Shown here: positions 1,178 through 55,100 of the stretch, piece after piece
Layout: every line of letters starts with the position of its first letter
Numbering within the stretch: the first letter of the stretch is position 1
NCBI RefSeq assembly: GCF_000003815.2
Contig: NC_049996.1
Span: 12,948,419-13,012,418 of the forward strand
Source of the DNA: Branchiostoma floridae
Taxonomy: Eukaryota; Chordata; Leptocardii; Amphioxiformes; Branchiostomatidae
DNA length: 64,000 nucleotides
Reading direction: 5' to 3'
The notes under the pieces: model-generated
Seen by the model: the letters and a program-made list of their open reading frames with translations, nothing else
Told to the model about the DNA's origin: nothing
The model's database searches: none
Made by a program: the position numbers and the translations under genes

Positions 1178-1606
1178 TGGCAGGTGGCTGGGTGGAGACC
1201 GACCCGACATGGGTGACACCGGACCTATGGGAGGGGGGTGACGGACTCCGACGGGTTGCCGGGTACGTCTTGGACTCCAACTTCCAGACGACTTGGAGAC
1301 GTGGAGACGAAGAGGCCACCTGGCAGCTGACGTTTGATCTGCAGACGTCCCTGACGCTTTCCAGAATTCGCATTTGGTACATTGAAGGAGTCAGCACTGG
1401 CATGCATATGGATGTTATAGTCATGGTTATGACAGGACAGCAATGGACCACTGTGCCGCACAACACACACATCAGGAGTGGTGACGAAAATATTAAACTG
1501 AAAGAGATCGACCTGACTGGTATCCTCGCCTCGGGACAGTTTTGGCGTCTGCAGTTCCCATTGAGTGAATATCGTGGAGAAATCAGCGAGGTCAATTTTT
1601 TCCAGG
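1178..1606 (+). CDS. Exon: discoidin-like (F5/8 type C-like) domain
   Basis: About 142 residues starting near GGWVETDPTW and ending EVNFFQG just before donor GTAAGT at 1607. The alternation of hydrophobic strands (TWQLTFDLQ, SRIRIWYI, FWRLQF, ISEVNFFQ) resembles a galactose-binding beta-sandwich of the discoidin kind, which usually binds glycans or lipids. The acceptor is TTTTTAG ending at 1177, or CAG ending at 1183; both give incoming phase 1. The family call comes from pattern only and is less certain than the exon itself. Confidence 0.65.
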
Positions 1607-4600
1607 GTAAGTGCTCAGTACTACTTAATATGGCTTTCGAACTGAAATCGAATTAGCAAGAATCAAGCAGAACCAGCCGGAATGAAGTATTTGCAAACTT
1701 CGTGCCACATTCGCTTCCATTCGGTTTGGAATTCCAAATGGACCTCATATCCCCTTCACATTAGAAAGATTGAGCCAACATACCGTCAGAATGAAAATTA
1801 TTTTCTATTCCTGGGAATTCGAAGTGTATTCTAGAAATTCTAACCGCATTCCAGATATTCTTTTGGCCACACTCTGGTATGATTCGAAGTGGCTTGCTGT
1901 TTCTATTCTCCATCGAATGAGATAAGAATGTTTCGAATAATGTTGGAATGCCGTAGAATGCGGTCATGCTGCAGTTAGAATAGTTAACATACAGTCGGAC
2001 CAGCCCAAAGAACAGGCACAAATATCTGGAATGCAGTGACAAGGAATAGAGAATAATTTTTAGGCTCATTCTTGTACTAGTGTGAAGGGGCCTTAAGCTG
2101 GTATCTCACCTGACTGCGCATTTTAGAGATTTTTCTTGATGACCTTCGCCAGGAAGGTAATATTTTGGGAAACGTTTGTGTTTATTTGTTTGTGACAGTG
2201 TGTAGAAAACCAGCATAACTCGCCAGGAGGGAATGGGTTTATATTTGGCAAAATCAACAAACAAATCAATAGTAGCTTCTAATAATACCTAGTTCTGTGT
2301 ATCTTACTATGTTCGCCCAGCGTGCTCCGGAGTTGAGAGGACGGTGTGTACAGACGGTAACTGTGACGTCCATGAGGTGGTCTGTGACGGCATAGTGGAC
2401 TGTGACGACGGGAGCGATGAAAACAACTGCGGTAAGGTCGTTAAAGAGGATCACCAGTCACGTATGAATACAGTTACAAATTTCTTTTGAGCAATGACTG
2501 TTTTTAAAGGTAAGGTACATACCTCCAAATTTTCAACGGCTGACAGTCGATCTTTTTCACGGAGAATGACCTAGTCTCTATCTCGCGAGAGAACACGAGA
2601 CTAGGTCAGTCTTGCGTAGATCAGCTTCCCCCTCCCCCCACCTCCTTGCGGAGTAGGGGTAGGTAGGACTTGGGCAGCTCCCTACCCTCATTGCGGTTCA
2701 GCTTCGCACCCACTAGCTGGATGTGAATAGTCTCCTTAATCTTGCTGTGGGCCTTGCGTGCTTCTAGGTCAATGATAACTGCGGTTTTTGCAGACATCCC
2801 ACGCTGCGCCTGTCGGCGACACATTATTGCGGCAACTTTGCGAATCTTTCGCCGATTTTCTTTTGCAGGCGACCGGTCAGCCTTACACACAGGTTTACGC
2901 CTAAGATTTCATATCCTATGTTTGCTCCCAACGTAGATGCAAAAAAAAACTTTGATAGTAGTGATACCAGTGCAGTTTGAAGTGACCGCTCTTGTTGGCG
3001 ATACTACTAGTTCTGGTCCTTTCAAAACATTTTACAAGTTGAACCTTTTTACAACTTGTAAAATAAACGAAATGTCAGGCACAGCTCTGTGAGATAGTCG
3101 CCTAAGATAAAGGGTCGTTTCGCAACAATGTCAGGTCGCAACCGTCAGTTCGCAACAAGGTAAGTCTTTTCGCAACAAGGCACAAGTCGTTTCGAAACAT
3201 TTAAATGTTAGCCTAAAAGTATTAGAAATAGTATTTCTAACATAATAATACTCCTTCGGCGTAAAAATTTACCGGGTGCAAAAAACAACCCCGGCATGGG
3301 CTGCATGGACCTGAAGGCCCGATGATTTCCAAACGCCGGGCGGTACAGTTTCATACGTGTCGTGCACAGGTAGGAGTATAATTATGTTAGAAACACGATT
3401 TCTAATACTGTTAGGCTATCAAGATTAATAATATCCAAATGTTGCGAAAGGACTTGTACCTTTTTACTAACTGACGGTTGCGAACTGACATTGTTGCGAA
3501 ACAACCTGTAACCTCGGCAATCCTCGTACGTTTTACCTACGAATACGTTTTTCATAAACATTAATGCAAATTTCATGAAATTTGTGCAAATGCTTATGTA
3601 CCCCTGACCATTGAGTAAGACTTTATGTTATGTCTAGAAATTACAATCTACGTAAATGGACGAGTATTGTAGAGACCTTGTCACTGTTCCTCTGACTTAT
3701 TTTTTTTCTTGAATGTAGATAAAGAGATCTGTCCGAGTGGAGTCGCCATCAACAAGGCAGAGGTGTGTGACGGTACAGACGACTGTGGAGACAATACAGA
3801 CGAGCAGAACTGCTGTGAGTATGGACACATGTTTCTTCCTATTTCTTTGCCTTTCTCTTGTTCTTGTAGATTTGGTAACGTGAGTTAGGTGCAGATTTTC
3901 TCACTTTCATGCATTTAACCTTCAAATTTCCCAAGGTCAGTTTTAGGTACCAATTTCCATACATATTTTCTCACTTTCATTTCAAATGACGTAATAGATA
4001 TTTTTGTTAGAAATTCTCCCCCAAACATTATATTGGATTTTGTAGTTGTTTCATGTTCATCAATAAATTTAAATGAATGTGTATTTTTTACTTTCCCGGA
4101 TAGGAAAATCGATTGCTTTTGCTTTCTTTATATTCCTTCTTCTCCGTGATATGAGTACCTAGAAAAGGGGCACGGGAAAATATTTTGCAATTATGCCTAT
4201 TGCCTTCCTGTTTTGCGAAAACTATGGCTTTCATTTTTATCTAAGTACAGTAAAATGTTTAATGTTTTATCTTTTTCATCCGCAAACTTTTTTTCCCCGA
4301 AAAACAGATATGTTAAAAAAAAAACGAATTCCTTCCGCTTGTATTTAATGAAGGTGAGCGTCAAGGTAGGCTGGCCTGCAGCAATGGACATTGTATAGGT
4401 TCACAAAAAATGTGTGCCAATACCCACATACCCTGCTTTGGTGAACCGAAAGGACAATATGCTAGATGTGACGATGTGGAGGATTGTTGGGATGGCAGCG
4501 ACGAGTCCTGCTGTGAGTAAACTGGCTGTAATTTAGTAGGCGGTTAGCTTGAAAGTTCATCTGTGTTGGTAGAAGTCATTATTGAACTAGTTTAACTGTA

Positions 4601-7600
4601 ATATCCAACACAATTCAACTCTTCGCAATTCAGCCCCCCTGGCTGCCAAGTGGTCGGCCCACACAATAACAATAACAACAACAACAACGCAAAAATTGGA
4701 CTCACCCAAATTTTCGACTGAACAGCACCAGTCTTTGCCGAGGAATGAACAATCCACTGCTGCCGTGACCTCACGTTATGCAGATAGAACACGTGACTCA
4801 GTAAGCAGTGGATCATAGGTTGTATATACTAGTTCTGCATTGATGTGCATACATTAGATAGTTGAATGTTAATGTATGTATCAATTGTGGCTCAACAGTG
4901 CCCTTTCCCTCTTCAGCGGTCTCTGCATGTGACAATGGAGCCCTGTTCCACCAGCTTTCTCGGTGTGACGGCAGAGACGACTGTGGGGACAACAGTGACG
5001 AGCAGAACTGTGGTACGTACGGTTTATTTGGGAGTTAAACATTTGAACGTGCACTGCAACAATCAAGCTAGCCCATACTTTCCGTGCCTACTATAAAGCA
5101 TGCAAAAAATTTACTAGCATCTTCTTAGCAGCCCTTCTGTACACAACATTTACGATGTAACGTTATATGTCCACAGTCTGTTACTATCTTCGGGACAGAG
5201 GGACAAGCTACAGGGGCCGTGTAAACCGTGACAACTCCTGTCAGTTCTGGACATCTCAGTACCCTCACACCCATAACCACACTCCCCAGGCCTACCCACG
5301 GGCAGGGCTGGAGCGGAACTACTGCCGGAACCCGGACGGGAAGGACAGGCCGTGGTGCTACACAAACAACCCGCTCATCAGGTGGATGTACTGCGAGGAG
5401 GTCTTCGCATGTGACGGTAAATTCAACGTTTGTATTCTTCAGCGTCTTCAATTTCTATTCTTTAACCTCCAGAGCTAAGGACGGATACACCCGGTCGTGT
5501 TAATTAACAGCATCCAAACAGCACATGATCGATGAAATAAGATTGCGTGAGATCGCATGGCAGAGCGACAGCGTGTTTGGCTCAGGACCGAGAGGTCTCG
5601 AGTTCGAATCCTGTCATGTCACCGATCTTTTGCCCTTGGGAAAGGCACTTTACACGACTTTGCTCACTTCACTCGGCACTTTATACGACTTTCCTCACTT
5701 CACTCAGGTGAAAATGAGTACCAAGCTTCGGCTAGGGCGCTCCCTTGGATAGGACGTTAAATGGAGGTCCCGATTTTAGGAAGAGCCACACCTCGTGCAC
5801 GTTAAAGAACCTACCACACGTGCGATGGTGCGGTGTGAGTAATTCAAAACCTACAGTCCCTTGGCCGCACCTGGGGAAATTACTGTCGTATTGAGGTCAA
5901 ATGAGTGGCGCCGAATGGCAGCTCGCTCCAGACCCTTGTGGTTAGCCCCACCTACTGTAAGCTTCTCGCAATTCAACCCCCTGGCTGCCAAGACAGAGTA
6001 GTCAGCTCAACCAATAGCAACAACAACAACAAATGAAGCTCACAACCCATGACCGCAGTGGTCGTAGTGGCCGTATCATAGACACAAACACCTTTCCAAA
6101 CTCACTGCGATGCCATATAAAACTCTCTTGTCACACCTACCTTTAGCATGTTTGTGCTCTTCAATGTAGCAAAAAAACATTATCAACTTCTATATACGGA
6201 GTCTAACATAGAATGATAGTGACATCAAGATATTTTTTTTTCAAAACATACATTCACATAAGCTCGGTATACTCGTGGCAATTGTAGAAGTGCTTTCCTT
6301 TATATGTGTGACCCCTTTTGAAAACTATAATTTGACAGTGCTGAAAGCAGGGTACATCCAGACAGGCGTTTTCGCTGTTGGATGTCGCTGCGTAGGAGGA
6401 GGTATATTGTATATATCCTCCATTTTGTTTTTATTTTAGCTCCACCGACGCGATGCTTCTACGCATTGGATAAGGGAAGGAGCTACGCAGGACAGACTAA
6501 CAGGTGAGGTCAGCTGGGCATTTTAGGAGCGTACAAACCATCGACATATAAATATTTAAACGAATGCACAAAATATCCGATACTACCTAGGCAACACTGT
6601 CGAGAAACTGCAGGAGGTTTCCCTCTCAAAATGCCTTTTTATGAAACCAAGACAGATTTTACTATGATAATCGCAAACATGTAGTTGTTCATAATTGCGG
6701 GAACAGCTAATATTTTTTTCATATTTACTAGTGTCATCGGCTGTTTTAAGCTCTGATTATTTTAAGACAGAGGAAGAAAGAGGAAGAAGAACACACCAGC
6801 AAAAACAAAATATTTTCCCGGAGGATACATGATAATAAGTAAACCTACCTGGAGTGATCAATTATTTCGCAGTCACATACCTGAAAAACAAAAAACGACT
6901 CAAATTCCGCGGCATAGTTAAGTTAACGAGTACTACGGGTTATAGTTAATGATGCGTTAATGAATGCATATCAAAATTCAAATCGTGGGGATCGTTAAAT
7001 TGCAGACGACACCCGTTTGACACCAGTAAGTGAGTTGAAGAGCGGTACACATTTTGCTATTGCATGATCTAAACAACAGAAAGGAGACCGGGTGTGTCAG
7101 AGATGGGACTCCCAGTCCCCCCACAGCCACCCCCACACACCACAGGCTCTTTACGCGTTTATATACCGTATATCTGTACAGGGCAGGAGACCGGGTGTGT
7201 AAGAAATGGGACTCCCAGTCCCCCCACAGCCATCCCCACACATCACAGGCTCTTTACGCGTTTATATACCGTATATCTGTACAGGGCAGGAGACCGGGAG
7301 CGTCAGAGATGGGACTCCCAGTCCCCCCACAGCCATCCCCACACACCACAGGCTCTTTACACGTTTATATAGAGTATATCTGTACAGGACAGGAGACCAG
7401 GTGTGTCAGAGATGGGACTTTCAGTCCAAAACAGCCATACCCAGCACACACCATAGTCTCTTTACACGTTTATTTACCGTTTATCTATACAGGGCAGGAG
7501 ACCGGGTGTGTCAGAGATGGGACTCCCAGTCCTCCCACAGCCACCCCCACACACCACAGGCTCTTTACACGTTTATATACCGTATATATGTACAGGGCAG

Positions 7601-10600
7601 GAGACCGGGTGTGTCAGAGATGGGACTCCCAGTCCCCCCACAGCCATCCCCACACACCACAGGCTCTTTACACGTTTATATACCGTATATATGTACAGGG
7701 CAGGAGACCGGGTGTGTAAGAGATGGGACTCCCAGTACCCCCACAGCCACCCCCACACACCACAGGCTCATCCTGATGCAGGCCTGGAGGAGAACTTCTG
7801 CCGTAACCCTGACAACAAGGAGCGGCCCTGGTGCTACACCATGGATGCGTCGAAGAGATGGGACTTCTGTGACGTCATGGAATGTGCTGGTAAGAGGGTT
7901 TGAGCAAACCTGTAGCTTTGATCTATTCTCGTTACTCAAATATTGATGTCTTCCAGTCTATCACATTGTAAAGACTGTGCCACGATTACAAGTTCTTTTT
8001 GTAGACACAAAACGCCAATAGAAAGCTCATAACTACTGTAAAGTAATACAAACTTGACAGGGACTAATATTTGCCAAAATAAATGCTCTTATTCTCTACA
8101 ATGAGGATAACGGCTCTTATTTGAAAACAAGACACCAAATAGTTTCTGAAAGGCAAGACACCAAATAGCAAAAAATTAATTATTCAGTAACTCAGAAAAA
8201 GATAGAGAGCTAGATTCCACACCGAATTCAAATGAGCAGGAAATCTGGCCAACATTTTGAATTTTCAACACTGGTCTGATATTTCTTCCTTTAAACCTAA
8301 TGTTGTAGAAAATATGGTATGATGTCTTTAGCCTTGCAGCACGCTTATGTGTCATTTTGCTTTGTTTGACAGCATTTTGTTGACAAGTAGTGGAGAAAAT
8401 TTTTCAAACAGATCTGACATTTAATATGCTAATACGTTTCAACCTTATTTCTTAATAACATCCCTTTGTTCCTGGTAGCAGACACTGGCTGGACTCCCGT
8501 TGGCTTCTAATTAGTTTATGTGGTCTTGAGGGTCAATTCAGCTTTCAAAACTCCTGGCACAATTCAGTAGGGTGGATCTATATTGTTTTATGGTTATTGT
8601 GGACCCTTGGAACAGAAAAAGGATCTTTTAGAAGGTTCATGACTCTATGACTTTTTGTACACATGTGCAGCGAAATGCATTGTGGATATTGATTCAAAGA
8701 TAGAGGTATCTGAGACGTAAACAAAAACGTCCCCTGGGTACCAGCCGGGATCGGGCAGCTAGGGCAGTCTTGGTTTGGTTATACAGATCGGGTAGCTAGC
8801 GAGTTTTAGTCGGGGAGCCAAGGCAGTCAGCCTGCAGATCTCCTACTAGCGCCCCAGGGAGTCCGATAAGGTAGTGATAACTCCTTGAGGCTTAAACTCT
8901 CCGGAGCGTTAATGTGAGATCGGCGGGCTGACTGCCTTGGATCCCCAAATGAAGCTCGCTAGCTACCCGGTCATGTTTGGCTCCCAGGGTAGCCTGAGCG
9001 ATGACAGAGATGAGAACAGTTGAAGGAGGTTTCACCTCTGACATATTTCCCGCAAAATAGACAACACACGCATGTGAACTTAAATGCACAGATCTCTTAT
9101 AAGACAGCAATTGTCAATAACCATTCAAAACGGAATAAATGCATCGACAATCATTCATCCGTAATTACACATTTGTCTTCTCAGATCCCCCATCACCAGA
9201 CTCTGCCGACCAGGACTGCCATGGAGCCTACACCTGTGAATTTTCGTCCAAACGACTCTGCTACTGTGACAAAGACTGCGGCTTTTTCGGTGACTGCTGC
9301 GAAGACTTTCAGTAAGTAAACCTGTTCTAGCCTGGTAAAATCACGCTACTAGCAGCCTCATCGGCTCTGACCGAATGCTGGCCAACAACTGTTCACCATC
9401 TACAATCACATTCATTGAGTTTAAGACAGACATACATGTATATTGTTATTGATTATAGATATCGATGACAATCTTTTCTTCAATACGGCACCTATGGGTG
9501 TTAGGTACGAGGTAAGAAGATAAACAAGCTTTATAGACATGACAAAAAGTGCTGTAAAAATCTTTATGGTAGCGGCGATAGATTATATGTATAATCTATT
9601 CATCAGTTTGACTGATGAGTAACTGTTACCCTACATATCTTATTATCATAATGTCTAGCCCCCATCGCTATGATTTGACTAGTTTTCATATTTGAAAAAG
9701 AATTTCTGATTCTAATTGGTCCTATTCTCAGCAATTATGAAAATGGAAAGGGCATGGTTAAGTTCACAACATGACATGTTAATTGGAGGCATTGTGATTT
9801 ATTACAACTTTATTGCACCCACTACAGAGAAGGCAGTAAATCCCAAACACCGTCTGACCATCACCATCTGAAGTGGGACTGTGTTCCTGGCTTTTCTCGT
9901 GGCTTCACTAGAGAAAATGAAAATAAAGAGTCCTATTGGATGGTGGCTGACTGCCCAGGTGAATGGACAGATGACGTCACGAGGGATAAGTGTTTAAGAC
10001 AAGTGGACCCCTTCAACCCAAGTGAGCTAGTCTACCGAATGCCTGTAGAGGACACGTCAAACGTCCCCTACAGAAACATATTCTGTGCAATTTGTAACAA
10101 TGTTTCTTTGACAGAGACAATTCTTTGGATGTCGAAAGTTGAGTGTACAGGGATGCTTGCCTTGTCTCCACAAATCCCTAGGGGTTCCCAAGAATACAAC
10201 AGCATCATTGAAGCCAGTTGGGAATATTGCTTTGGAACGAAGACAATAGTGTTTGTCCCTTTAAACATATCACATGCAAGGCGATGTGTCCAGGCTAATA
10301 TTTTAGAAGAGAGTTGTGATATCTCCTCCTGTATGTCCTACAGTTACCCAATAGGCACTGGGTATAAGATTTACAAAAATTTTCACTGTGCTCTTTGTGA
10401 AGGGCTTTCTCTTACGGCAGCCGCCAAACTTAAGTGTGCTTCTGCTTTGGATCCATTTGTCCGAAATCAATGCACTAATCCTACTGCCTGTCCCTCAAGA
10501 TTCTCACTAACTAATCTGTTCAACTTTAATTCCTATGGCAGTGGTGGAAACAGTCCCAATCAGTGTCCTTCCGACACTTTATACGATCCATTTGCCGACT

Positions 10601-12330
10601 CATGCCGGTTATTCTCGTCTACCCGTAGAACTCACGGCTCGTTAAACAATACCACCCCCTTACAAAACTGCAGCAAACCCGCTCTGACGTTCACAGCGGA
10701 AGAGTTCCGAGTCCTTCCCAATGGTAGCGTCCACCTGTTGGGTTCTAACGTGTCCTGCCCAGCTGAGCAGGTGGCCATTCTGAACACAACAGCATCGATT
10801 TGCGGGGAGTGCATTCTTCAGTACTTCTCAAACTACACACAGACAGCTAACCCTTGGGACGCTGACCAGGGCTGGTTAACCCTAGGTCTTGTGATAGTGT
10901 CCGCTGTAGCAGTGTTTGGTTTCGTGGTCCACAATATCAGGTCTGGTCGGTGGGAGAAAGTCCCAGAAAAGCTGAAGGTTCAGATGTTGGTATGTATGGC
11001 GCTCGCTGAAGTCTTGTTTGTGGTACGTGTGCGGGTCCCCCTCGGACCGGCCTGTACAGCGTTCGCGATACTTCTACACTACTTCCTGTTGACGGCCTTC
11101 ACATCCATGAACGCTCTAGCCATGGACCTCTTTCTAACGTTTCGTGATGCTTTAGAAAGGAAGAAGCTGTACCAGTACCTGTTGTACACATGGCTGATGC
11201 CGATGCCTATAGTCGTAGTGACTTTGATTGTGGAATTCGGCAGTTCCGTCAGGGTGGGTTACGGAGAGAACTGTTGGATTGGTGATCCCATCAGCAGTCT
11301 GGTGGCTTTTGGGGTTCCTGTCCTCAGCGCCCTTCTGGTCAATGCTGTCTTGATCACTTTTGTTTTGCTGGCCTTACGGAAGTCATTTGAGATAGCCGAC
11401 AAGGCAAAGTCACGTTCGCACATCAGTAAGGCTTGGGTTTACTTGCGTATCTGCTTCCTGACGGGGTTCACCTGGATTCTCGGCTTCATCTATCCTTACG
11501 TCAACAGCCGAGCTGTCGAGTACATCTTCATTGTGCTGAATTCTTCTCAGGGCCTTCTGCTTACCTTGATACTGACAATAACATCGAAGGTGGTGCAGAA
11601 ATGGAAGGTGGCGATCAGAGCACGCTTCGGTCTGACTCAACCTAAGCAGAACGCTGGAGTAACCAACACTGCCAACAACAATCAGACTACCGCAACGGCG
11701 TGTAAGACCAGCTCATCTGCAGACATACCCATGACAACTATAGCTGATGTGGAGGAGAACAGAAAGCGCACTCAGCTGGATAGGCCTCATCAGGGCCGCG
11801 GATGTACCGCCATAGTTACCAATCTGACGACCACAGCATGCGGAACCGACTTTGCTATAGAAATGCCCAAGACAACTTTGGCTGATGTCGAAAACACCGC
11901 ACGCTCTCATCTGGACAAGCCTCAACAAGACGGAGCAACCGCCACTGCAAGCACTAAGCTGACTCCCGCAGGGGAAACTGGCGTAGTGGCAGGCGGAAGT
12001 GACGTAGTGGCAGGCGGAAGTGACGTAGTGGCAGGTGGAAGTGACGAAGTGGCAGGCGGAACTGACGTAGAGGCATGCGGAAATAACGCAGTGGCCGCAG
12101 GTGAAACTGACGTAGTGGCAGACGGAACTGACGTTGAGCCAGGCGGAACTGACGTAGACGCAGACGGAACTGACGTAGTGGCAGCCGGAACTGACGTAGT
12201 GGCCGCAGGTGAAACTGACGTAGTGGCAGGCGGAACTGACGTAGAGGAAGGCGGAACTGACGTAGACGCAGGTGGAAATGACGTAGTGGCTGCAGGCCGA
12301 ACTGACGTAGAGGCATGCGGAATTGAATGA
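1178..12330 (+). CDS. Mosaic adhesion-type / Methuselah-like GPCR gene, 5' incomplete
   Basis: Predicted cell-surface receptor. Exons: 1178-1606, 2321-2431, 3719-3814, 4354-4512, 4917-5012, 5177-5416, 6440-6503, 7699-7889, 9185-9311, 9828-12330. Every junction is GT-AG and the phases (1,1,1,1,1,1,2,1,2) keep one frame for about 1335 codons to the TGA at 12328. Domain order is discoidin-like, LDLa x4, kringle x2, somatomedin B, Cys-rich ectodomain, 7TM and repetitive tail. The first visible exon enters in phase 1, so a signal-peptide exon should lie upstream, outside the window or unrecognised in 1-1177. No GPS-type cleavage motif (His-Leu-Ser/Thr) is seen before the first helix, so a Methuselah-like rather than a classical adhesion GPCR is favoured. 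Ligand and G-protein coupling cannot be read from the sequence. Confidence 0.85.
2134..2265. repeat. Dispersed repeat, CTTCGCCAGGAAGG family (copy 1)
   Basis: This stretch starts with ACCTTCGCCAGGAAGG and shares phrases such as CCAGCATAACTC with copies at 42172-42460 and 50508-50900. It is an interspersed repeat of unknown class inside the first receptor intron shown. Confidence 0.6.
2321..2431 (+). CDS. Exon: LDL-receptor class A module 1
   Basis: One phase 1-1 exon encodes a complete LDLa module with six cysteines and the calcium-binding end CDDGSDENNC. The acceptor is GCCCAG at 2320 and the donor GTAAGG at 2432. LDLa modules bind calcium and mediate protein or lipoprotein contacts. Confidence 0.92.
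2568..2607. repeat. Short perfect hairpin
   Basis: GACCTAGTCTC at 2568-2578 is matched by GAGACTAGGTC at 2597-2607, an 11-base inverted repeat around a CTCGCGAGAG core. It may be the end of a small mobile element; the 1.1 kb around it in this intron holds no exon. Confidence 0.7.
3111..3507. mobile_element. Foldback / MITE-like element with ~130-bp inverted arms
   Basis: The left arm (about 3111-3255, with repeated TTTCGCAACAA) is the imperfect reverse complement of the right arm (about 3370-3507, ending TTGTTGCGAAACAACC). A centre of about 110 bases separates them. There is no coding capacity, consistent with a non-autonomous DNA element in the LDLa 1-2 intron. Confidence 0.75.
3719..3814 (+). 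CDS. Exon: LDLa module 2
   Basis: The 96-base phase 1-1 exon reads from DKEICPSG to the DCGDNTDEQNC signature. It starts after TGTAG at 3718 and ends before GTGAGT at 3815. It looks shorter than module 1: the N-terminal cysteine pair is reduced, so it may be a trimmed LDLa variant with two disulfides. Confidence 0.88.
4354..4512 (+). CDS. Exon: LDLa-like module 3, enlarged
   Basis: The 159-base phase 1-1 exon ends in the LDLa motif DCWDGSDESC, with extra cysteines (CSNGHC, KMC, IPC) ahead of it. It is about 20 residues longer than its neighbours, with an insertion between the first cysteines. The acceptor is AATGAAG at 4353, following a modest pyrimidine tract; the donor is GTGAGT at 4513. 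Confidence 0.8.
4596..4690 (+). repeat. Truncated SINE tail
   Basis: It matches the 3' end of the SINE at 5545-6034 (CTTCGCAATTCA, CTGGCTGCCAAG) and ends in (AAC)n. A 5'-truncated copy fits aborted reverse transcription. Confidence 0.7.
4917..5012 (+). CDS. Exon: LDLa module 4
   Basis: The 96-base phase 1-1 exon has the acidic motif DCGDNSDEQNC, preceded by a basic-acidic stretch RCDGRD typical of ligand-binding LDLa repeats. The acceptor is CTTCAG at 4916 and the donor GTACGT at 5013. It resembles module 2 in length and end motif, suggesting these two arose by exon duplication. Confidence 0.9.
5177..5416 (+). CDS. Exon: kringle domain 1 (unsplit)
   Basis: The 80-codon phase 1-1 exon carries a full kringle. 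The six cysteines lie in CYYL, SCQFW, NYCRNPDG, PWCY, MYCEE and FAC, and the kringle hallmarks YCRNPDG and RPWCY are intact. The acceptor is CCACAG at 5176 and the donor GTAAAT at 5417. Kringles are disulfide triple-loop protein- or lysine-binding modules. This copy is in one exon, whereas kringle 2 is split by an intron. Confidence 0.95.
5545..6034 (+). mobile_element. tRNA-derived SINE with (AAC)n tail
   Basis: The head has a B-box-like GAGTTCGAATCC near 5603 and an A-box-like TGGCAGAGCGACA near 5559, as in a pol III promoter derived from a tRNA. The body includes phrases repeated elsewhere in the window (ACTTTCCTCACTTCACTCAG, CACGTTAAAGAACC). The tail is a simple (AAC)n run. It sits in the intron between the two kringles, and body copies recur at 38541-38830 and 53783-54075. 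Confidence 0.8.
6440..6503 (+). CDS. Exon: kringle 2, N-terminal part
   Basis: The short phase 1-2 exon encodes about 21 residues with the opening cysteine (RCFYALDKGRSYAGQTN) of kringle 2. The acceptor is ATTTTAG at 6439 and the donor GTGAGG at 6504. It only makes sense when joined in phase 2 to the exon at 7699. Confidence 0.85.
7082..7774 (+). repeat. Tandem array of kringle-exon 5' halves (103-bp unit, 7 copies)
   Basis: Units start at 7082, 7185, 7288, 7391, 7496, 7599 and 7702 (period 103, once 105). Each unit is about 72 bases of the kringle 2 exon 5' end plus about 31 bases of upstream intron, including the acceptor TGTACAG for copies 2-7. Only the last copy runs on into the rest of the exon. 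Copy 4 (7391-7495) is the most diverged. The only upstream acceptor in frame with the true exon is that of copy 3, and it meets a stop near 7370, so read-in from earlier copies would not give a kringle. Confidence 0.93.
7699..7889 (+). CDS. Exon: kringle 2, C-terminal part
   Basis: The exon starts after TGTACAG at 7698 and reads AGDRVCKRWDSQ, then FCRNPDNKERPWCY and DFCDVMEC, which supplies the other five kringle cysteines. It ends before GTAAGA at 7890 in phase 1. A start at the nearby GGCAG (7703) would hit a stop at once, so the 7699 start is preferred. Its first ~72 bases are the youngest-looking member of the seven-copy 103-bp tandem array lying directly upstream. Confidence 0.9.
8728..8995. 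mobile_element. Foldback element with ~48-bp inverted arms
   Basis: Arms at about 8786-8833 and 8923-8972 pair (for example GGTAGCTAGCGAG with CTCGCTAGCTACC, and CCAAGGCAGTCAGC with GCTGACTGCCTTGG). It is a non-coding, MITE-like insertion in the intron before the somatomedin B exon. The rest of that intron (7890-9184) shows nothing else. Confidence 0.75.
9185..9311 (+). CDS. Exon: somatomedin B domain
   Basis: The phase 1-2 exon reads DCHGAYTCEF, then LCYCDKDC and GDCCEDF, giving the eight cysteines and the CxCDxxC / DCC spacing of somatomedin B domains. The acceptor is TTCTCAG at 9184 and the donor GTAAGT at 9312. Somatomedin B domains are small disulfide knots used for protein binding. To my knowledge they occur next to Methuselah-like 7TM regions in some invertebrate receptors, which supports the gene model. 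Confidence 0.92.
9312..9827 (+). other. Intron, no feature
   Basis: AT-rich intron between the somatomedin B exon and the terminal 7TM exon. Only its splice sites (GTAAGT, CTACAG) are recognised. Confidence 0.7.
9828..12330 (+). CDS. Terminal exon: Cys-rich ectodomain, seven-helix domain, repetitive tail
   Basis: A 2503-base exon following CTACAG at 9827. The ectodomain (9828-10870) holds motifs such as VADCPGEW and FCAICNNVS with many cysteines and Asn-X-Ser/Thr sites. Helices fall near 10873-10940, 10972-11030, 11053-11140, 11173-11241, 11283-11376, 11440-11505 and 11517-11585. Secretin/Methuselah-like marks are the extracellular loop-2 cysteine in ENCWIGDP, FTWILGF in helix 6 and LNSSQGLLL in helix 7. 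The tail holds two similar segments (TTACGTDFAIEMPKTTLADV and an earlier TTATACKTSSSADIPMTTIA) and then the repeats at 11971-12318. The stop is TGA at 12328. Confidence 0.9.
11971..12318 (+). repeat. Coding minisatellite in the receptor cytoplasmic tail
   Basis: Units of 21 and 24 bases encode variants of GGTDVVA and AAGETDVVA. There are about 15 imperfect copies, all in frame. The product is acidic, rich in Gly, Ala, Asp and Val, with no basic residue until near the end, so it should be disordered in the cytoplasm. Unit lengths divisible by three and the open frame suggest selection for length-tolerant coding. Copy number is likely to vary between individuals. Confidence 0.9.
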
Positions 12331-18900: not shown

Positions 18901-21900
18901 GTTTCTTGAGACCAAGTCGTTACTTTTTATTTACTACCTGAATTCGCATTCTTCTACTTATAGTAAGGAAGATTAAGATAGATAGATATGTACCTTTCTT
19001 AGAAGTGTTAATAAAGTTTACTCGGAAATAAGAAATTGTTTATCGAGTCTTGTATTGACACGTTTCTTTAGCATTGTTGCCAAATGAATCCATACCCAAA
19101 CACGGCACATTGAAATGCAACGTAAGCAATATTACATCGCGTTAAAAGTTTAAATAATCTGGATAAGGCAATATGTTTGAAATTGATATTTTGCGCAGTA
19201 TATTCCAGCATTTACACCATTATATAATACTTTGAGCGGCTAAAAATGGCACAGAAACAAGCCGCGCTTAGATTTTCTAAATATTGCCCCCCCCCCCCCA
19301 TACTGCAGATGTTTAGCTCTATACTACAGATAGGTAGCTATATGCTACAGATAGGTAGCTCTATACTACAGATAGGTAGTATATGTATAAGATCAATGAT
19401 GGATATAATACAGATAGTTACCTATATACCACAGATAGGTAGTTATATACTACAGATAGCTATATAAAAAAATTTACTACAGATATTAAGCTCTATACTA
19501 TTTTTTGGTTTGTTGTGTTTATTGACAGTGCCCATCCCATGTATATATCGTGCTCACGTGCCATTTCATTGGAAGTAAATGGGAAAAAAATCCCGTATAA
19601 GATGCCTTGGGCATATAATATTTTCTCCATACATTATATCATGATTAGCATTATCACTAGCCTCTACCAGGCTACGTGGATCGGTGGTCTAATTGTAGAA
19701 ATTGGACAAATAGAGTCAATAGTACGCTAGGGGAGTCGGCCGGCCAGAAAAAAAAACATTGGCCTCACCACTTTTGCACCAAAATGAATTACAACGTTTG
19801 TATTTCATAACATGTTAGTGTCAACCACTGTAAGTTCAATATGTGTAAAGAAGTGCAAGAGTAAATGGTTGCAAACTGTTGTTACCTCAGGTTATGGTAC
19901 CAGCGACCAACGTGACCCCCCTACCAGCGACCAACGTGACCCCCCTACCAGCGACCAACGTGACCCCCCTACCAGCGACCAACGTGACCCAGTGGGGCAA
20001 GACAGTTGAAACTGCAAAGCAGAACCTATCAGTGACTCGGGAAGGTGTGGTACAAAGTCTACTGCAACTGTAACACTACATACACCAGATATAGAGTAAT
20101 TTCTATAAAAACTTTGATATATCATTATCAAGCAAAATGGACCCCCCCCCCCAGTCAAGGAGGAAGAATGTATGGCATTCATCCACCAAGAAGAATTGGT
20201 AGGTTCTAATTTGTAGAATTTTGAAGACCATTAGTAAAGTTTGTCATTTTCCGAAAACTCCCAATTTAACGCTGTCCAGTATGGGCTTCTTTGAGCAAAT
20301 GGGGCTACTTCTGCGGCCCGCGTTTGTAACTCCTATAATACGACGTGATTTATGTGATGTTGTTTGCTGGAATCAACTTGACTTTTGAAAATTTTCAGCA
20401 AATCACCAAAGAAATTAAAAACAGACGAAAATTGATTTAATTGATTAAAATACGTAAACAAATTTTATGGCATAAAAAGAAGTTAGACTTTGTCTGGTGA
20501 TCCATCTTCTTTGACTTCGACAGACAAAGTCATTAAATTTGAAGTATAATTCATAGATACTTTATTTTTAAAGATACACTTAATTACATCGGATTTTATT
20601 CATAGAAAAATAATAGAGCAGAACTGTAGCAAGAAAACCCCCCAGAAAACATAGTTTAAAGCAATTTTCGTTTAGAAAATGCCTGTCAACAATGCAATGG
20701 CAATACGAAAATTGGAAAGTTTCTTTAAGATAAGAATGTTTCCAACTAGATTTTAGGAAACGTTAATAGAAATTCAGTGACTTGTAAAATCTAGCGTAAG
20801 CCGTTCAGGCGCTATGCGACCTGAAAGTTGCACCGGCCTCGAAAGCACCCCCCCTCCCTCTGAATACGGTTAAGGTTTCTTTCGCATTCTAACAAAATCA
20901 TTACAGACAATCGACAAGCAACAAACACTTTCACTTGGATAATAAATTACCTGTAATGATTATTTAAGTCTGATCCTACAAACAGTCCCGTGTGGTAATT
21001 ATGAAACTGGATTTGTCATTGTTGTCGTTGATGTTATTGATGACTAAACTGAACTGATTTTTATAGCTGACATAAAGATGCAAAGTCGGCTACAGGTTTC
21101 CACCATATCGGCTAACGGTTAAGATGGCTGGCAAAAACTAAAAACAACTATACGTTTATAGAGAATTTTGCTTGACTAGGCAAAAATTCCCAAGTGAGCA
21201 ATGGATGTAATGGTACCATATCCCTGATGTTTATTTTATACCTGTGACGGGAAAACGTTCGATACGGGTGTTCCGGACCGGGTGATGTCTTTCCGTATCA
21301 GACGGGTTCTAAGTTGTTTCACATGGACTCCATTCGAATAAATCGAACTATTTCGGGCGATCCGACCTGCGGTCGGGCTGGGACTTCGGGCAATACGGGA
21401 TACACCGTGTTGTATTATGCATCAGTGGATAATGCAGGTCATGTAAATGTGCAATTTATGTTCTGATATTCTGTACGTTTTGAATAAACAAGTCAAACTT
21501 GGGCAATTATCAAGTCCACAAATGCAAAAATTGTAATGAAGTTTAAAAAAAGAAAATCGATTTTTTTAAAGTAGGCATAACATTCATAGTGATGGTCTTC
21601 CTGGAAATTTCTTTCTTTTGGTATTTAAACGTTCGTCCACTGTTTTAGCTCCCAGGATTGGCCGCTGCCAGGTCGGATACAAAATCCTCGCCTGGACCTG
21701 CATCAGACTCAGCTTTCGAAAAATGAACTGGTGGAAATCCAGGAATGCCTGCAATAAGGATGGTGCGAGACTAGCAATGCCTAAAACAGAAGAGTTGGAT
21801 CACGCTTTGAGACACCTTGTCCACAAGGAAGGTCATAACGTCAACTTTTGGATTGGCTTGCGGGACAAGGGGGGCTTCTTTCTTAAAGAGAGACACTGGC

Positions 21901-22469
21901 TCTGGGGAGATGGGTCTACATTGGGCCACTACAAAGTGAGTATATCAAGACATGCCTCGTCAAACAGAATGTATTTTTTGTCACGGAAGGTTAATTTTTT
22001 TAGAATGTTAGTCTTAGTGAGGAATGGGCAAACATACAAGGTCACTCGTCTAAAGGGCTTTGTGAAGGGGCTTGATTTTCCCTTTTTTTAGTCTCAGATG
22101 TTGCACAGCTTGGTTTAGCGTATTTTGGTGCCAGATATCCATATAATTAATAATTCATATAAATTATGTTTTGTTTTCTTTTGTGCTGGATTATTATTGA
22201 CTTTACGAGTAGCATACGATTAAATCAATACTATATTATGGTTTTGTGTAAAAAAAACGGCGTATTGCGTCTGCTATCGAGACTTAAAGCTGTTTCATTG
22301 CGTTTTTCAGGGATGGTATCCAGGAACGCCTGATAACAAAAGGTGGCTTCATTTGGCCAAATTGAAATTGTGCGTTCAATACAGGTCAGGGCGCACTGGC
22401 AACCATATGTGGGATGATATTAAGTGTAGTAACAGGCACGGGTTTATCTGTCAAGCGCCTCTGGAATAA
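15695..22469 (+). CDS. Lectin gene A: type II membrane C-type lectin, 6 exons
   Basis: Exons: 15695-15980, 17189-17440, 18733-18881, 19891-20044, 21649-21935, 22311-22469; phases out 1, 1, 0, 1, 0. The joined CDS is 1287 bases, about 428 aa. It encodes an acidic cytoplasmic N-terminus, one helix (about 20 residues within IAGAVAALIASGVAATICVI) preceded by arginines (positive-inside, so N-terminus in), a repetitive stalk and a C-terminal C-type lectin domain. The exon plan matches genes B and C, but there are fewer tail exons and one stalk exon instead of two. A glycan- or pathogen-recognition role is inferred from the family. Confidence 0.85.
15981..17188 (+). repeat. Intron of gene A holding a dispersed intronic repeat
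   Basis: About 16190-16790 shares phrases (TATTGTTGC, AAATATGCTGTATTTGCTC, repeated 'GTCTATTTTGCA'-like units) with 55300-55670 in gene C and, reversed, with 35515-35780 in gene B. It behaves as an interspersed element with an internally repetitive body. No exon is seen. Confidence 0.6.
17189..17440 (+). CDS. Gene A exon 2: cytoplasmic tail module
   Basis: The 84-codon phase 1-1 exon is Asp/Asn-rich and ends LLYVPGALRQGNGK. The ending YVPGALRQ is shared with tail exons of genes B and C. Acceptor ATCAAAG at 17188, donor GTACTT at 17441. Confidence 0.85.
17441..18732 (+). other. Intron of gene A
   Basis: AT-rich, with a short near-repeat of ATTAGGGATAT around 18270 and 18365. No exon or recognisable element. 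Confidence 0.6.
18733..18881 (+). CDS. Gene A exon 3: transmembrane helix
   Basis: The 149-base exon encodes an Arg-rich juxtamembrane segment, then MIAGAVAALIASGVAATICV, a clear signal-anchor helix. The donor is GTCTGT at 18882, which aligns with the unusual GTTTGT donors of the same exon in genes B and C. Acceptor CTTCACAG at 18732. Confidence 0.88.
19300..19500. repeat. Minisatellite, ~21-bp unit
   Basis: About nine imperfect copies of CTACAGATAGGTAGCTATA in the gene A intron between the helix and stalk exons. The unit happens to be open in one frame (LQIGSYM-like) but lies between well-placed splice sites and is not taken as coding. Confidence 0.85.
19891..20044 (+). CDS. Gene A exon 4: stalk with NVT repeats
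   Basis: It begins after TTACCTCAG at 19890 in phase 0. Four tandem 24-base units encode PATNVTPL (the last ends NVTQ), each with an N-glycosylation sequon; NLS follows, a fifth site. The donor is taken as GTGTGG at 20045, giving phase 1, exactly what the lectin exon at 21649 needs. Without that donor the frame stops at 20070, so a short secreted or membrane-bound form ending there is possible. Confidence 0.7.
21240..21420. mobile_element. Dispersed element sharing termini with 23517-23890
   Basis: It begins near AAAACGTTCGATACGGGTG and ends near ATACACCGTGTTGTATT, both matched in the copy at 23517-23890. It is a non-coding, probably non-autonomous element in the gene A intron before the lectin domain. 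Confidence 0.65.
21649..21935 (+). CDS. Gene A exon 5: C-type lectin domain, first part
   Basis: It reads CQVGYKILAWTCIRLS, then NACNKDGARLAMPKTEELDH, FWIGLRDKG and the WGDGS loop. It includes the extra N-terminal cysteine pair of long-form lectin domains and the conserved WIGL. Acceptor TTTTAG at 21648; donor GTGAGT at 21936, phase 0. Confidence 0.93.
22311..22469 (+). CDS. Gene A exon 6: C-type lectin domain, end
   Basis: It starts GWYPGTPDNKRW and ends RHGFICQAPLE before TAA at 22467. The calcium/sugar site is altered: TPD replaces the EPN/QPD motif and MWDD replaces WND, so calcium-dependent sugar binding is uncertain. An AATAAA at 22465-22470 overlaps the stop codon. Confidence 0.92.
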   Translation, partial: GWYPGTPDNKRWLHLAKLKLCVQYRSGRTGNHMWDDIKCSNRHGFICQAPLE

Positions 22470-28725: not shown

Positions 28726-47041
<18,316 letters not shown>

Positions 47042-49107: not shown

Positions 49108-52100
49108 GTGTGTTTGTTTACATTGTTTTATGTAGATTTTTCACAATGCTAAAGGGAGTACTCTTCAAGCAGAGGTTAGGCTCCGGTTATTGTTTTTAAC
49201 GTTTTTTAGTAATTTTCATCGGGCTTTTTATTTTGCATTGTATCTCACTGTGGCCTGAGTTAGTTTTTGACAATACACATATACAAAATATGATACAAAA
49301 TAGAAAGTCCGATAAAAACGACTAAAAGAACGTTCAAAATACAGCCGGAGGCTAACCTCTGCTCGGAGAGTTAGGAGGGGGGGACTCAAGCGCATAAGTA
49401 CATATTCAAGTTGATCTTTCACATACTAAATCACTAAATGCAAAATCAGCAATAAAACTGAACTACTAGTATATCCAGAAATATACAATACTGATATTAA
49501 TGATACAATAAAGAATACATAATCAAAGCGCAAGAACTCCGTGAGTATGAGGCAATGCTTTTTTCCCAATTCAGGAGTTTTCAATTTGTTTTCACTAGTT
49601 CAGTTTTGGCAGAGAATTGTGTCTTTTAAACACTTGCCTATTTACCGAAAGAAACAGATCATTTTGAAACCTTGGATTCTAGGAGCCTTTTTCGAATTAA
49701 AAAAAAAACAATCCAAAGACATTTTCAAATCATAAAATCAGCTCATTATGGAGCGTGTGTCGGTTTGTTGTCCACTGCCTTTAAAGCACAAGCCATGCCC
49801 CATAATAGTAAGCGTAGTACCTTACCATAGAAACTCCACACTACTTCACCTTTACTTTGTGGATATAAATGCACAAGGGACTAAATGCTAAAACAGATCT
49901 GTTTTTCACAGGCGTTGACGACACTGTAAAATTCACGACTACCAATGAGAGTACCGATACTTCTGATTCCCAAGTCAAGCATCATATCGAAAGTGATAAC
50001 ACCATCATCTTAAGGCAAATCGGCGCCCCAAAGAACGATAGTGAACATCCAACTGACACGGAAGCGGGGAGCACATTTCCCGTAGCTGTAGGCACGAATA
50101 TCATCTGCTTGGTTGACAACACGGAGTACACAACTGGTTCTGCACAACAACCTGGACACAGAAGTATGCTCTGTTGTTTGGATTCCTTTGGTATTGATGT
50201 AGAAATAGTGATGAGGAAAGTGCTTTTAGTAGTATTTTTTAGCGTAGTATTTTTCTTCCTCAGCTCACCGTAATACAACAAGTTCAGTTCAGGTCAGTTC
50301 ATCCTCGGAGACGTGACACCATCGTCTCCACATGTTCCTGTCCAGCATGATCGAACGGAGCTGCTTTATCTCACATAATGTCAAAGAAGTCCTATAGTAA
50401 TGTTCTTGCTAGGAAATAATATATTGAACAATGATATATAATTGTATTTATACATGTATAATGTTGTTTAATGAACAGGCATTTATATGTGTTAGTTAGA
50501 TTATTACCTTCGCCAAGAAGGTTATGTTACGGGTAGCGTTTGTATGTATGTATGTATGTATGTATGTGTGTGGAACCAGCATAACTCAAGAACGCCGCAA
50601 TGGATTGTATTGATATTTAGTATGTCGGTAGGTCTTGATTAGGCATGAAAACGATTAAATTTTGGGCCCCCTAGCTGCCTGTTACAGTACTGCAGCGGAA
50701 CTTCCTGCTTTGATATTTCGAGTTCTGCACATGTTGCGGCTATGATTTTTGAGTGGTACACAGCTCTTGATGCCGAAAGTTAGTGATGTAGGCATGGGCC
50801 CCTAGCGGTTTGTTTTGGAACTGCAGGGCAGGTTTAATGTTATACTTGAAAAGGGAATAACTCAAGAGAGGGTTAACGGATTGTTATGATTTTTGGTATG
50901 TAGATAGCTTAAGTGATGCTTCATATAATGACATATTTATTATGCAAAATGGAATCTTATTTGCATAATTGATTAAGAAATTTTGTAAACACATTCAGTT
51001 CCATTATAAGGCCATTGCGACATGTGACAATTGTAACTGAGAAGGAGAAGAATATTAGTTGAAATATATATTATGCAAAATAAAGACCTAATTTGCGTAA
51101 TTTATGTTTTTGATAATGTATGTGCGAGGGTTGGTCAATACGTTTTCGGCGCCTCACCCTGAAAAAAGTGCACTACTCAAATTTCAGTGTAAAGTTTTTA
51201 ATGAATGTGTACCGAAATTCAAATAATTGTGATCATTACTTTGGGCGACACCCGGTAATGGTGAGTAAGAGAGGAGAAAAAACATGGGCAATTGAGCTGC
51301 GACATGAGGTGTGCGGGTCAACGTACTCTGCTGAAAGCCAGACACCCACTCTAAGACTTAGATCTTTTTGAAATGCAAATGTAATCCTTATAAACATGTT
51401 GACAACATGTCTTCAGAGAATGTGCGGCATGGGGAGCTCGCCTACACATGTCTGATCTTAGTTAGTCCGTTTTGTCTCGCCGATTACTTCTTGGTCTTAC
51501 AAAAAGATGTTACCAGAAAGTAACAACTGCAATGATTTGAAATTTGGACGATATTTAATAAAGGCTTCATAGAACGACGTTGTGCCTCAAAATTTGAAAA
51601 GTGCTTATTATTTTTTGGTTTGTTTGTTCTGGGTGAGGTCGAGAACTTATTGATCATCCCTCTTATGCATATGTATTGCGTTGGCATAGTAACCACTTAA
51701 CAGTTATAAGAAGGGGGTACCAGTACGGTGTACGGTACAAAACCGTTTTTTTTTTCTTTTTGGACCTTTCCAGGAAAACCGGACCTGAATAAAATCATTG
51801 GACCGGATGTTAGACCGTTTCGAAATTGACCAGATAATACCGATAGGTGTTCACGTGTTTTAGGGTTAACATGTCCAAGAAAATAACAAGAGCTAAGTAG
51901 TTGAGTTGATAGTCATTTTAACCAAGTTTCAACAGTCAAATTTGGCCCAAACCAGAGGCATCGAGTGTTGTTTACATGAAGATAGGATTGTAAAACGCCA
52001 ATGGACGTCGGATGCTCCACCAAACAGAATCCTTTGTAGTGAAACAGACCATTGTTTTGAGTATGATACATTCACAGATAATTTGGTCCAGGTTCAGGTC

Positions 52101-55100
52101 CGGACCAGGACCTGATCCTCTGAACCTGGACCTGAAGTTTCTGTACCGGTACCCAGCCCTAGTTTTTAACCTTGATGTTGATCTCTGACTCTTTTACTTA
52201 TTTTCTTGCAAAGACCTGCCGGCAATTCCAAGATGGCTGACCATAGAGGCTGATGACTGCGATAATGACCCAGACAGCCACGTGTACCATAATTCCGAAT
52301 TAGATGACATCAACAGTCTACAGCAGGCTGCTAAAGACGTTAGGCAACGAGATGATACAGAAGAAGACAACGCCTCATCAAACAATGGACGGAAGGACGA
52401 GTCGGATTCGATAAACTACCAAAACTATGTGCCTGGTGCCCTTCGACAAGATAGCAACAAAGGTAGAGTTGAGTTTATTGTGATACCCTTTATCTCATTG
52501 AGCTAATCTTCCAAGGCTCATTAAAAAACACAGTATATACATTGTACAAGTTGATGGACAGACATCATGCACTCAAAACAGATACAAATACATATACCTA
52601 AAGTCAAGAAGTGGGGTCAGAGGGTTATATACAATAAAATCATGTTCCGTAGAAATTGTCTATCATCTTCTGTAACAATCTTGTATCAGAGACTATCTTG
52701 AAATCTCTGGGTAGCAGATTCCACAGTTTGACTGATCTGTAAGTAAATGTTCTACTCCCACTGTTGTTCCTTGCATTCGGTAACTTATTCGGTAACTTAT
52801 AGTAACTTATATGCACTGCCTAGTAGAGTGACTATGGCATGCAGGTATATACATAATAACTGTTAAGTTTTTTTTTTCCTTCAATGAATAGATAAAGCAG
52901 CGCTGTGCGTCCATGCCTTAACTACGAGCTACATAACCTTAGAAAGTATCAAATTCAGATTGAACAGAGATGCTTCTATGCCACATACAGACTTCTAATC
53001 TATGTTTCCCCTCAAGAAGTCTCAGAATACCCCATTGCAACGTTAGATGATGTAAAAAGCCGGGAAGAGGGCAGGGAACCCAAATAATACCATTTACCGC
53101 TCATCTGTCGTTTTGGTTTAGGGCAATGCCTTGATTCAATATTAACTAAAGGAAGATATTAAAAGATTGTAAAGCATGTAGCGTTGGTATGGCGTAACTG
53201 GAGGGTAAAGGCATCATGATATAGTAAAACTCTTTTTTTTGTGTGTGGTATTTTACGACTGCAAAGCTAAAGGCAATGTAAAATTTTACGAATGCAAACG
53301 TAACTGAAACTTTTTTGTGTTGTATATAGCCGAATTCCTTGTACAATTCTTTATAATTTTTTCAGTGTTACATACTTAAACTGGTGCGTTGATAGATAAA
53401 CTTTTAACGTCTCCGGAACCCATAAATCATTTATCATTTATATCATATGTAAGTCTTTGACTCGGGTACTCTATTTTTTCTACTTGTTCTACAGAACAGC
53501 AGACAGTGAGCACCATAGAGGCTGATGACAGCAATAACGACCCTGACAGCATTTATGTCAACAGAGATGAGAGTAACAGCCAACAGCAGGGTACCGAAGA
53601 CAGTGGACAACGAGCTGATAAAGAGAAAGAAACTGCATCATTAAACAATGTACAGACGGACGACTCGGGCTTGCTTAAGAACCCAACCTACGTGTCTGGT
53701 GCAGTTCCACAAAATAACATCAAAGGTACATATCACATGTACTCTGTGTTTCTTTTAATGGGAAAAGGGGTATTGCGGCACTTAACACTGCTTTCCTCAC
53801 TTTACTCAGGTAAAAATGAGTACCTAGCTTCGGCTAGGGCCGTCCCTCGGATAGGAGGTTAAATAGAGGTCCCGTTTTGGGAGAGCCACACCCCACACAC
53901 GTTAAAGAACCCCCGCATGTGTGCAATGGTGCAGTGTGCGATCGTGCGAATTCCTTCCGTCTAGAATTGGTGATTCCCTTCAAATCACCAGGACTCCAGG
54001 AAGAATGGTGACATATCCGTCACTGCTGGAGATCTGTATAACCAAACCCATGCCCTAACCCTTACCCGTAGGCAAGAAGTGGAACATTACAGAAAGTCAG
54101 ATCGACAATAGATACTCCTTAAACTCCACTGTTTCACTTTACGTTACCCTAGTCTGCCATAGTTTCCGCCCAATAAGCTGCTGTCAGTGTCAGGGCTTGG
54201 CCGCTGACCTGAACTGATACTCGGAAACAACCATTGTCAAAGGTCACATTTTCATACCGATAAATGCAAAAGGAATACAGCAATGTATATTGATATTGAT
54301 TGAGAAAAAAGGAAGTCAACATAGAAGTTTCTAAGCAAATGAACCTAGTAATATAGAAGAAATATCTAATCAAGTCGGTATGATACCAAAATAAGATGCA
54401 GTAATGTACTTTAAAAACTCAACTCGTATTAGAATTAATTTTGACCTCACACAGATCCAACAATCATCTGTTCCACCTGTCTCCGTTCCCGTCTGTTCCG
54501 TGGCATCATCATCGCTGCTGCAGTGGCAGCCTTAGTTGCTGCAGGAATCACTGCGGGCGTTTATCTCACTCTCGCAACGGAGAACAATGCCAAGCTCAAT
54601 ACAGTTTGTTTGTTTTTTGTTCTGTTTTCTTTTCTTTGTAATGTACTAAGGGTATAGCTAGCCTTTTAAAAATGTACGAAATTTACAGTCGGATAAATGA
54701 GAAAATCTTTGGAGACCTTAAACCATCATGAAAAATTGCGGGCTTTTCCAAATTTGTTGCAGATGGCTTTCACATTACATAATAGATAACAATGTCATTC
54801 ATATCTATATTTTAGCCATACCACGGGTATGGTGAAATATATTGTATTTGTAATGTTTCATCTTTTCTTCTTCTTCTGTGTCCTTTTAATTCTTGATATT
54901 GATAAATCTCCGTCGTTCCTGGACCGAATGACCTGAAATTTGGCAGAATGGTAGAAAAGGCTAATATAGATCTACTTGGATTCTTTTATTTGTTTTGTTT
55001 GCTTATCTGCCTTTAAAAGGATTTGTTGATTTTTCTTGGTCATTTTTAATCCAAAAACTGTATAATTTGGCCCCATGTACCCTTGTCTTACAACCAAATG

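Follow-up and report, generated by a model that had tools for sequence, protein, structure and literature searches.

A lancelet class-B receptor gene joining discoidin-like, LDLa, kringle and somatomedin B modules, its dispersed family, and possible homogenisation of its kringle exons

The 64,000-nucleotide stretch analysed here (the window; Branchiostoma floridae contig NC_049996.1, positions 12,948,419 to 13,012,418 of the forward strand) carries near its start most of a multi-exon receptor gene. When the exons were rejoined base by base from position 1178, they gave 1337 residues with a single terminal stop (12328-12330), and this one open frame runs through an F5/8C-like module, four LDLa modules, two kringles, a somatomedin B (SMB) module and a class-B seven-transmembrane (7TM) domain. 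The first-pass annotation had placed this module combination in one gene, with junctions at 1606/2321, 5416/6440, 7889/9185 and 9311/9828. AG/GT signals are present at these junctions and the frame is kept; the combination itself was borne out, as the exons join without a frame break, the modules match Pfam and their order is repeated in paralogues. Comparison of genomic sequence gives us high confidence that this is a single lancelet gene for a class-B (secretin/adhesion-type) receptor, in which a signal peptide is followed by the discoidin-like module, four LDLa, two kringles, SMB, a cysteine-rich stalk with no recognisable GPS, the 7TM and a tail rich in repeats, and that it is a member of a dispersed family of about 24 genes. 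The same comparison establishes the gene structure, the family, the conserved order and phases, and mostly purifying selection.

The start of the gene falls before the window: a signal-peptide (SP) exon that ends in phase 1 lies 3.5 kb upstream (C18:12944900-12944984, window position -3518), and relatives of it were found in eight of nine paralogues. The discoidin-like (DS) exon had been started at 1178, but the acceptor of the family corresponds to 1184, an AG 6 nt downstream: in all eight paralogues whose DS exon start could be located, an AG is present only at the position of 1184. Note that in the window gene an AG precedes both 1178 and 1184, and that both keep the frame. With the SP exon and the start at 1184, the summed exon lengths give a coding sequence of 4095 nt, or 1364 amino acids. 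It had also been claimed that all modules lie on phase-1 boundaries. This holds for the outer boundaries of DS, the four LDLa modules, kringle 1 (K1) and kringle 2 (K2), but not for the internal intron of K2 or the exit of SMB, which are in phase 2; the last exon enters in phase 2. Phase-1 exon shuffling, proposed on the same occasion, is supported by the exon phases in the window gene and its paralogues.

Table 1. Exons of the receptor gene and repeats within it (window coordinates; phases at entry and exit)
Feature	Position	Strand	Phase	Remarks
Exon 2, discoidin-like (DS, F5/8 type C)	1184..1606	+	1-1	Pfam, paralogue acceptors
LDLa 1	2321..2431	+	1-1	six Cys
LDLa 2	3719..3814	+	1-1	four Cys; reads as without C1-C3 pair
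LDLa 3	4354..4512	+	1-1	inserted loop with two extra Cys; 5' junction codon is Cys
LDLa 4	4917..5012	+	1-1	four Cys
Kringle 1 (K1), single exon	5177..5416	+	1-1	NPDGK motif
Kringle 2, first part (K2a)	6440..6503	+	1-2	
Tandem array	7082..7769	+		period 103 bp, 6.7 copies; "mirage" minisatellite
Kringle 2, second part (K2b)	7699..7889	+	2-1	NPDNK motif
Somatomedin B (SMB)	9185..9311	+	1-2	last Cys supplied by next exon
Last exon	9828..12330	+		Cys-rich juxtamembrane region, class-B 7TM, cytoplasmic tail, stop TGA
Tail of coding repeats	11968..12326	+		units of ~21 bp; 7 amino acids, GGTDVVA-like

Pfam was run exon by exon against the family cut-offs. The kringles scored 80.0 and 79.6 bits (cut-off 34.3), the 7tm_2 domain of the last exon 70.6 bits (cut-off 20.6), and the SMB exon alone 24.9 bits (cut-off 23.1), although SMB reached 21.5 bits, under the cut-off, in a longer joined query of 554 amino acids. 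Three LDLa modules were above the cut-off of 24.1 (29.5, 30.5 and 31.3 bits), and the third LDLa was below it (19.3 bits). LDLa2 and LDLa4, which are 57% identical over 28 amino acids, read from the spacing of their four cysteines as lacking the first and third. When exons were joined across introns, the score of K2 rose to 87.9 bits (79.6 unjoined) and that of SMB to 27.4 bits (24.9 unjoined), supporting the junctions 6503/7699 and 9311/9828. The last exon has 20 cysteines before the first transmembrane helix, all kept in ten of ten genes, the first of them being the final cysteine of SMB. No Pfam match to the G protein-coupled receptor (GPCR) proteolysis site (GPS) or the GAIN domain was obtained, no HL[ST]-type motif occurs in residues 251-350 of this exon, and the Mth ectodomain (PF06652) was absent from the matches to the last exon (E up to 1) and to the stalk (E up to 10). 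The closest solved 7TM structures are those of adhesion GPCRs (ADGRL3, E 1.9e-14; best secretin-type, 0.0022), and the long modular N-terminus and adhesion-like 7TM by which adhesion GPCRs are recognised are both present.

The B. floridae genome (513 Mb) was searched with the last-exon protein, giving 45 places. Twenty-four are family 7TM loci at 58% identity or above, the window's own counted; two short fragments (C9 and C343) also exceed 58% but lack K2b, K1 and DS and were not counted, and the remaining places are second pieces of counted loci or remote relatives. Upstream of these 24 loci on the same strand, K2b exons (among the best 150 of 524 candidates) are found at 22, K1 exons at 21 and DS exons at 21. 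All 22 K2b exons with at least 80% identity are followed on their own strand, at a distance of 840-3347 bp, by a tabulated 7TM place. The pairing used hand-entered coordinates covering 29 of the 45 7TM rows (pieces and stalk-only matches omitted) and 23 of 25 DS rows, with K1 places chosen by eye; the four DS pairings that span more than 20 kb are possibly mistaken, and two places each for K1 and DS were left without a partner. No further paralogue was found within the 64-kb window.

Gene structures were then compared between the window gene and nine paralogues (p02-p10), for which 20 kb upstream of each was read. The order LDLa2, LDLa3, LDLa4, K1, K2a, K2b, 7TM is present in ten of ten genes, six genes (the window gene, p02, p04, p05, p06 and p10) have every element from SP to 7TM, and exon boundaries and phases are common to all ten apart from the exceptions listed below. 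The ratio of nonsynonymous to synonymous divergence (dN/dS) between the window gene and the nine paralogues was 0.29-0.47 in the 7TM exon and 0.18-0.35 in K1. Note that the following rows were left out of the dN/dS comparison: LDLa1 of p03 and p09, DS of p03 (not found) and p08, LDLa3 of p07, SMB of p03, p06, p08 (not found), p09 and p10, and SP of p03 (not found).

Several observations weigh against a uniform one-gene structure. In p03, SP, DS and LDLa1 were not found within 20 kb upstream; in p09, whose far locus holds 4,701 Ns, LDLa1 stands upstream of DS; LDLa3 of p07 was seen weakly and without a donor; and in p08 DS is split over two places and the SMB exon was not seen (Ns). The DS donor of p06 is GC, the LDLa4 acceptor of p04 is shifted by 3 nt, and the SMB acceptor was not placed in p03, p06, p09 and p10. 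Furthermore, dN/dS exceeded 1 once (LDLa3 versus p04, 1.40 over 52 codons) and was 0.84-0.95 in some short exons (SP, K2a). The DS exon of the window alone is under the Pfam cut-off (18.4 and 17.6 bits versus 27.8 and 28.2) and gave no usable match to solved structures in the PDB, while eight of eight family DS exons scanned match F5_F8_type_C (best E 5.4e-5). Kringle candidates came from two lists, of which the best 150 of 528 and the best 150 of 524 were scored, and the assignment to one gene is drawn from genomic sequence.

It is very improbable that two adjacent genes, one for a secreted DS-LDLa-kringle protein and the other for an SMB-7TM receptor, merely appear joined here. SMB-7TM genes lacking a listed kringle nearby do seem to be present elsewhere in the genome (best 150 candidates per kringle list), and the frame of the SMB exon is open upstream to an ATG at 9139; however, the frame from this ATG has no clear signal peptide as judged by eye, whereas an SP exon lies upstream in the window gene and in eight of nine paralogues. 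In addition, SMB and K2 score higher when joined across introns, exon phases are conserved, and each of the 22 K2b exons described above is followed in the same orientation by a family 7TM exon. The two-gene explanation was rejected on this K2b/7TM pairing over loci and on the ten-gene structure comparison. A decayed or chimeric copy arising from assembly or recent duplication is scarcely credible, since the frame is open over 1337 codons, dN/dS is mostly below 1, the same gene structure recurs at loci on several contigs and the window is free of N, even though the paralogue neighbourhood at C18 7.75-7.89 Mb contains partial copies.

Two further observations concern family members. GGTDVVA-like repeat tails are found also in p03, p04 and p05. 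At C18 ~7.864-7.869 Mb, a reverse-strand 5' half gene (SP, DS, LDLa1-4 and K1) occurs together with a second DS nearby and one 7TM exon left for them; this may be a duplicate of part of the gene or an error of assembly.

The end of the intron within K2 and the start of K2b are occupied by the tandem array of Table 1, a minisatellite of the kind called a mirage. Each 103-bp unit combines the 3' end of the intron with ~71 nt from the start of K2b, and the last copy runs into the true exon. An AG precedes five of the six starts scanned in the window array, the true exon included. A related 103-bp unit is present at the same intron in p02-p08 and p10, which are dispersed paralogues. Counting the true exon, starts numbered 15 in p07, six in the window gene, five in p06, four each in p03, p04 and p05, three in p10, two in p08, two in p02 (one diverged) and one in p09, which has no array; the scan was ungapped and missed the window copy at 7384. 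Translation of the array was considered and rejected, and we make no coding claim for it, because its length cannot be divided by three and, in the window array, two of three forward frames contain stops.

We next compared divergence exon by exon between a close group (the window gene and p02-p05, defined by 7TM identity of 84-85%) and the other pairs. Median synonymous differences in close and other pairs, respectively, were 0.15 and 0.43 for 7TM, 0.20 and 0.50 for DS, 0.18 and 0.45 for SP, 0.18 and 0.35 for K2a, 0.12 and 0.37 for LDLa1, 0.10 and 0.56 for LDLa2, 0.20 and 0.65 for LDLa3, and 0.19 and 0.38 for LDLa4. The corresponding values were 0.12 and 0.14 for K1 and 0.19 and 0.16 for K2b (means 0.123 and 0.159, and 0.171 and 0.162, beside 0.16 and 0.43 for 7TM), giving close/other ratios of the means of 0.77 and 1.05; in 1000 drawn 7TM blocks this ratio was never above 0.60 (79 codons) or 0.67 (63 codons). 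The close clade has a stem of 0.106 and support of 100/100 in the 7TM tree and was recovered at 99-100 in DS, in LDLa2+LDLa4+K2a and in three length-matched 7TM blocks, but not in K1+K2b. Across 21 paralogues with K2b, whose identities were entered by hand, K2b identity to the window gene was not correlated with 7TM identity (Spearman 0.16, p 0.49); identities of DS (0.72, n 19) and LDLa3 (0.64, n 12) track it. Likeness before K1 reaches ~40 bp into the intron and falls away after the exon end. This close/far pattern points to homogenisation of K1 and K2b by gene conversion across loci but does not prove it.

The kringle likeness could instead reflect constraint on the sites themselves, the main rival explanation, which we regard as rather unlikely and for which several observations speak, to the detriment of homogenisation. 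GC content at third codon positions is high in K1 and K2b (0.76 and 0.68), and a few free, saturated sites could equalise close and far distances. Four of the five close genes still group in the K1+K2b tree (78/92), and by the approximately unbiased test a close clade is not rejected by these two exons (p 0.36). The pairwise homoplasy index (PHI) test gave p 0.013 for K1 and p 0.013 for K2b with 32 nt of intron; it was not significant for K2b codons alone (p 0.085) and fell below 0.05 also in three of seven 7TM blocks, so that PHI support for gene conversion is modest. Far pairs are rather alike also in the 100 bp that precede the 7TM exon (0.54, versus 0.59 before K1), and the intron evidence for K1 is therefore weak, only the K2b flank being strong. 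The close/far contrast of SMB is likewise small (0.24 and 0.33; 5 sequences, 4 far pairs). On the other hand, constraint on coding sites has to face likeness that extends ~200 bp into the intron upstream of K2b (0.88 and 0.87 in far pairs, 0.88 and 0.89 in close pairs) and drops after the exon (0.17 in far pairs). Moreover, the terminal branches of the close genes have similar lengths in the K1+K2b and 7TM trees while the stem of the close clade is gone from the former, and informative sites separating close from far number 0 of 17 in K1 and 1 of 17 in K2b with 32 nt of intron, compared with 70 of 416 in seven 7TM blocks and 9 of 57 in LDLa2+LDLa4+K2a.

As regards homogenisation, we propose tentatively, with the balance of our own judgement still somewhat on the doubtful side, that ongoing conversion may keep K1 and K2b near-uniform across chromosomes, with the mirage array as template or hot spot, while DS and LDLa3 diverge. 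No published account of kringle homogenisation was found in the available text of the open-access literature searched.

Elsewhere in the window, C-type lectin frames occur on the forward strand at 21570-22091 and 57862-58254 (Lectin_C, 37.4 and 41.0 bits). Related open reading frames with NPTYV-, QTYV- or NTEYT-like motifs lie at 38882-39226, 40467-40829 and 45684-46073 on the reverse strand and at 49869-50273 and 53461-53862 on the forward strand; none of the three scanned out of these five had a Pfam match. Long open frames of HTLVIPWSYLG-type repeats at 32794-34512 (reverse strand) look like a simple repeat rather than a gene.

Remoter relatives bear on the origin of the architecture. In three that match through the 7TM (C2:27.63 Mb, C7:9.35 and C2:19.38; 32-35% identity), SMB lies shortly before the match in the same orientation, and inspection by eye placed none of the listed kringles (best 150 candidates per list) within 300 kb of them. 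Three more places with SMB upstream (C1:10.32, C4:11.47 and C16:12.79; 26-33%) were not counted as SMB-7TM because the matches cover the stalk only. Since SMB exits in phase 2 whereas the other modules enter in phase 1, and in view of the relatives with no listed kringle nearby, we infer that the SMB-7TM receptor is the older core. On this view, the phase-1 intron that separates SMB from the signal peptide would have taken up the phase-1 modules (DS, LDLa and kringle) in the lancelet lineage, and the gene would be a clear example of exon shuffling into such an intron of an SMB receptor.

As to function, the 7tm_2 domain suggests that the receptor signals, and it may, as the first-pass annotation had it, be a receptor for matrix or protease-like ligands. 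The protein ligand of the extracellular modules would be secreted or sit on a surface, and its binding would be relayed through the stalk to the 7TM and on to a G protein, with no GPS autoproteolysis involved. Lysine binding by kringles needs an Asp at the second anionic position. In ten of ten genes, the kringles carry Lys (the last residue of NPDGK and NPDNK) where plasminogen K1 and K4 have Asp; plasminogen K3 also has Lys there. Because Lys replaces Asp in both kringles, classic lysine binding is not expected, and protein binding of another kind would be expected. The near-uniform kringles may meet a partner common to the paralogues, and the diverged DS and LDLa3 may give each receptor its own specificity. 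If true, the receptor would combine a shared-partner part and a variable part, upheld by exon-wise exchange of DNA. If homogenisation holds in other lancelets, the family would provide a system for single-exon concerted evolution across chromosomes and for the role of mirage arrays in it.

The combination had been called unusual, but its kind has a precedent in lancelet adhesion-type GPCRs, in which SMB, kringle, LDLa and discoidin modules are reported (PMC2246102). In its available text, Nordstrom 2008 describes kringle and SMB in an uncharacterised amphioxus adhesion GPCR expansion of ten genes, lists LDLa and discoidin among the domains unique to amphioxus in that comparison, finds GPS in many lancelet adhesion GPCRs and gives methuselah receptors as absent from amphioxus (PMC2246102). 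Because kringle/SMB lancelet receptors were already published there, the receptor kind is known from 2008 and later papers; a 2025 survey also has kringle among adhesion-receptor domains (PMC12716839). Like that expansion, the present family carries kringle and SMB on a class-B-like receptor in many copies; what differs is that about 24 close loci are found instead of the ten reported in 2008, that the real, single-gene module combination is laid out with its full order, phases and SP exon, and that no GPS was found.

The label "Methuselah-like" for the 7TM agrees with published 7TM trees, by which de Mendoza 2016 places Mth/Mthl homologues in lancelets (PMC4768249). According to the same source, SMB occurs in B. 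floridae XP_002608881 and in Nematostella and Saccoglossus homologues, and the Mth ectodomain PF06652 is arthropod-only (PMC4768249). Like those non-arthropod Mth/Mthl receptors, the gene described here has a class-B 7TM without the Mth ectodomain and with SMB, whereas kringles, LDLa and discoidin are added here. SMB with an adhesion-like 7TM is likewise shared with NvX, which has some homology to Methuselah receptors, and planarian PARF1 (Zamanian 2011, PMC3261222), for which the available text mentions no kringle, LDLa or discoidin. As for the array beside K2b, mirages are known in amphioxus Adh3 and globin genes, where reverse transcription PCR suggests normal splicing (PMC3087553). The array resembles them in its tandem copies over an intron-exon boundary with repeated splice acceptors, and the BflGb6 mirage likewise duplicates the 3' intron end and the 5' part of an exon; unlike the mirages described there, however, it has counterparts in most of the dispersed paralogues examined, which share a related 103-bp unit at this intron.

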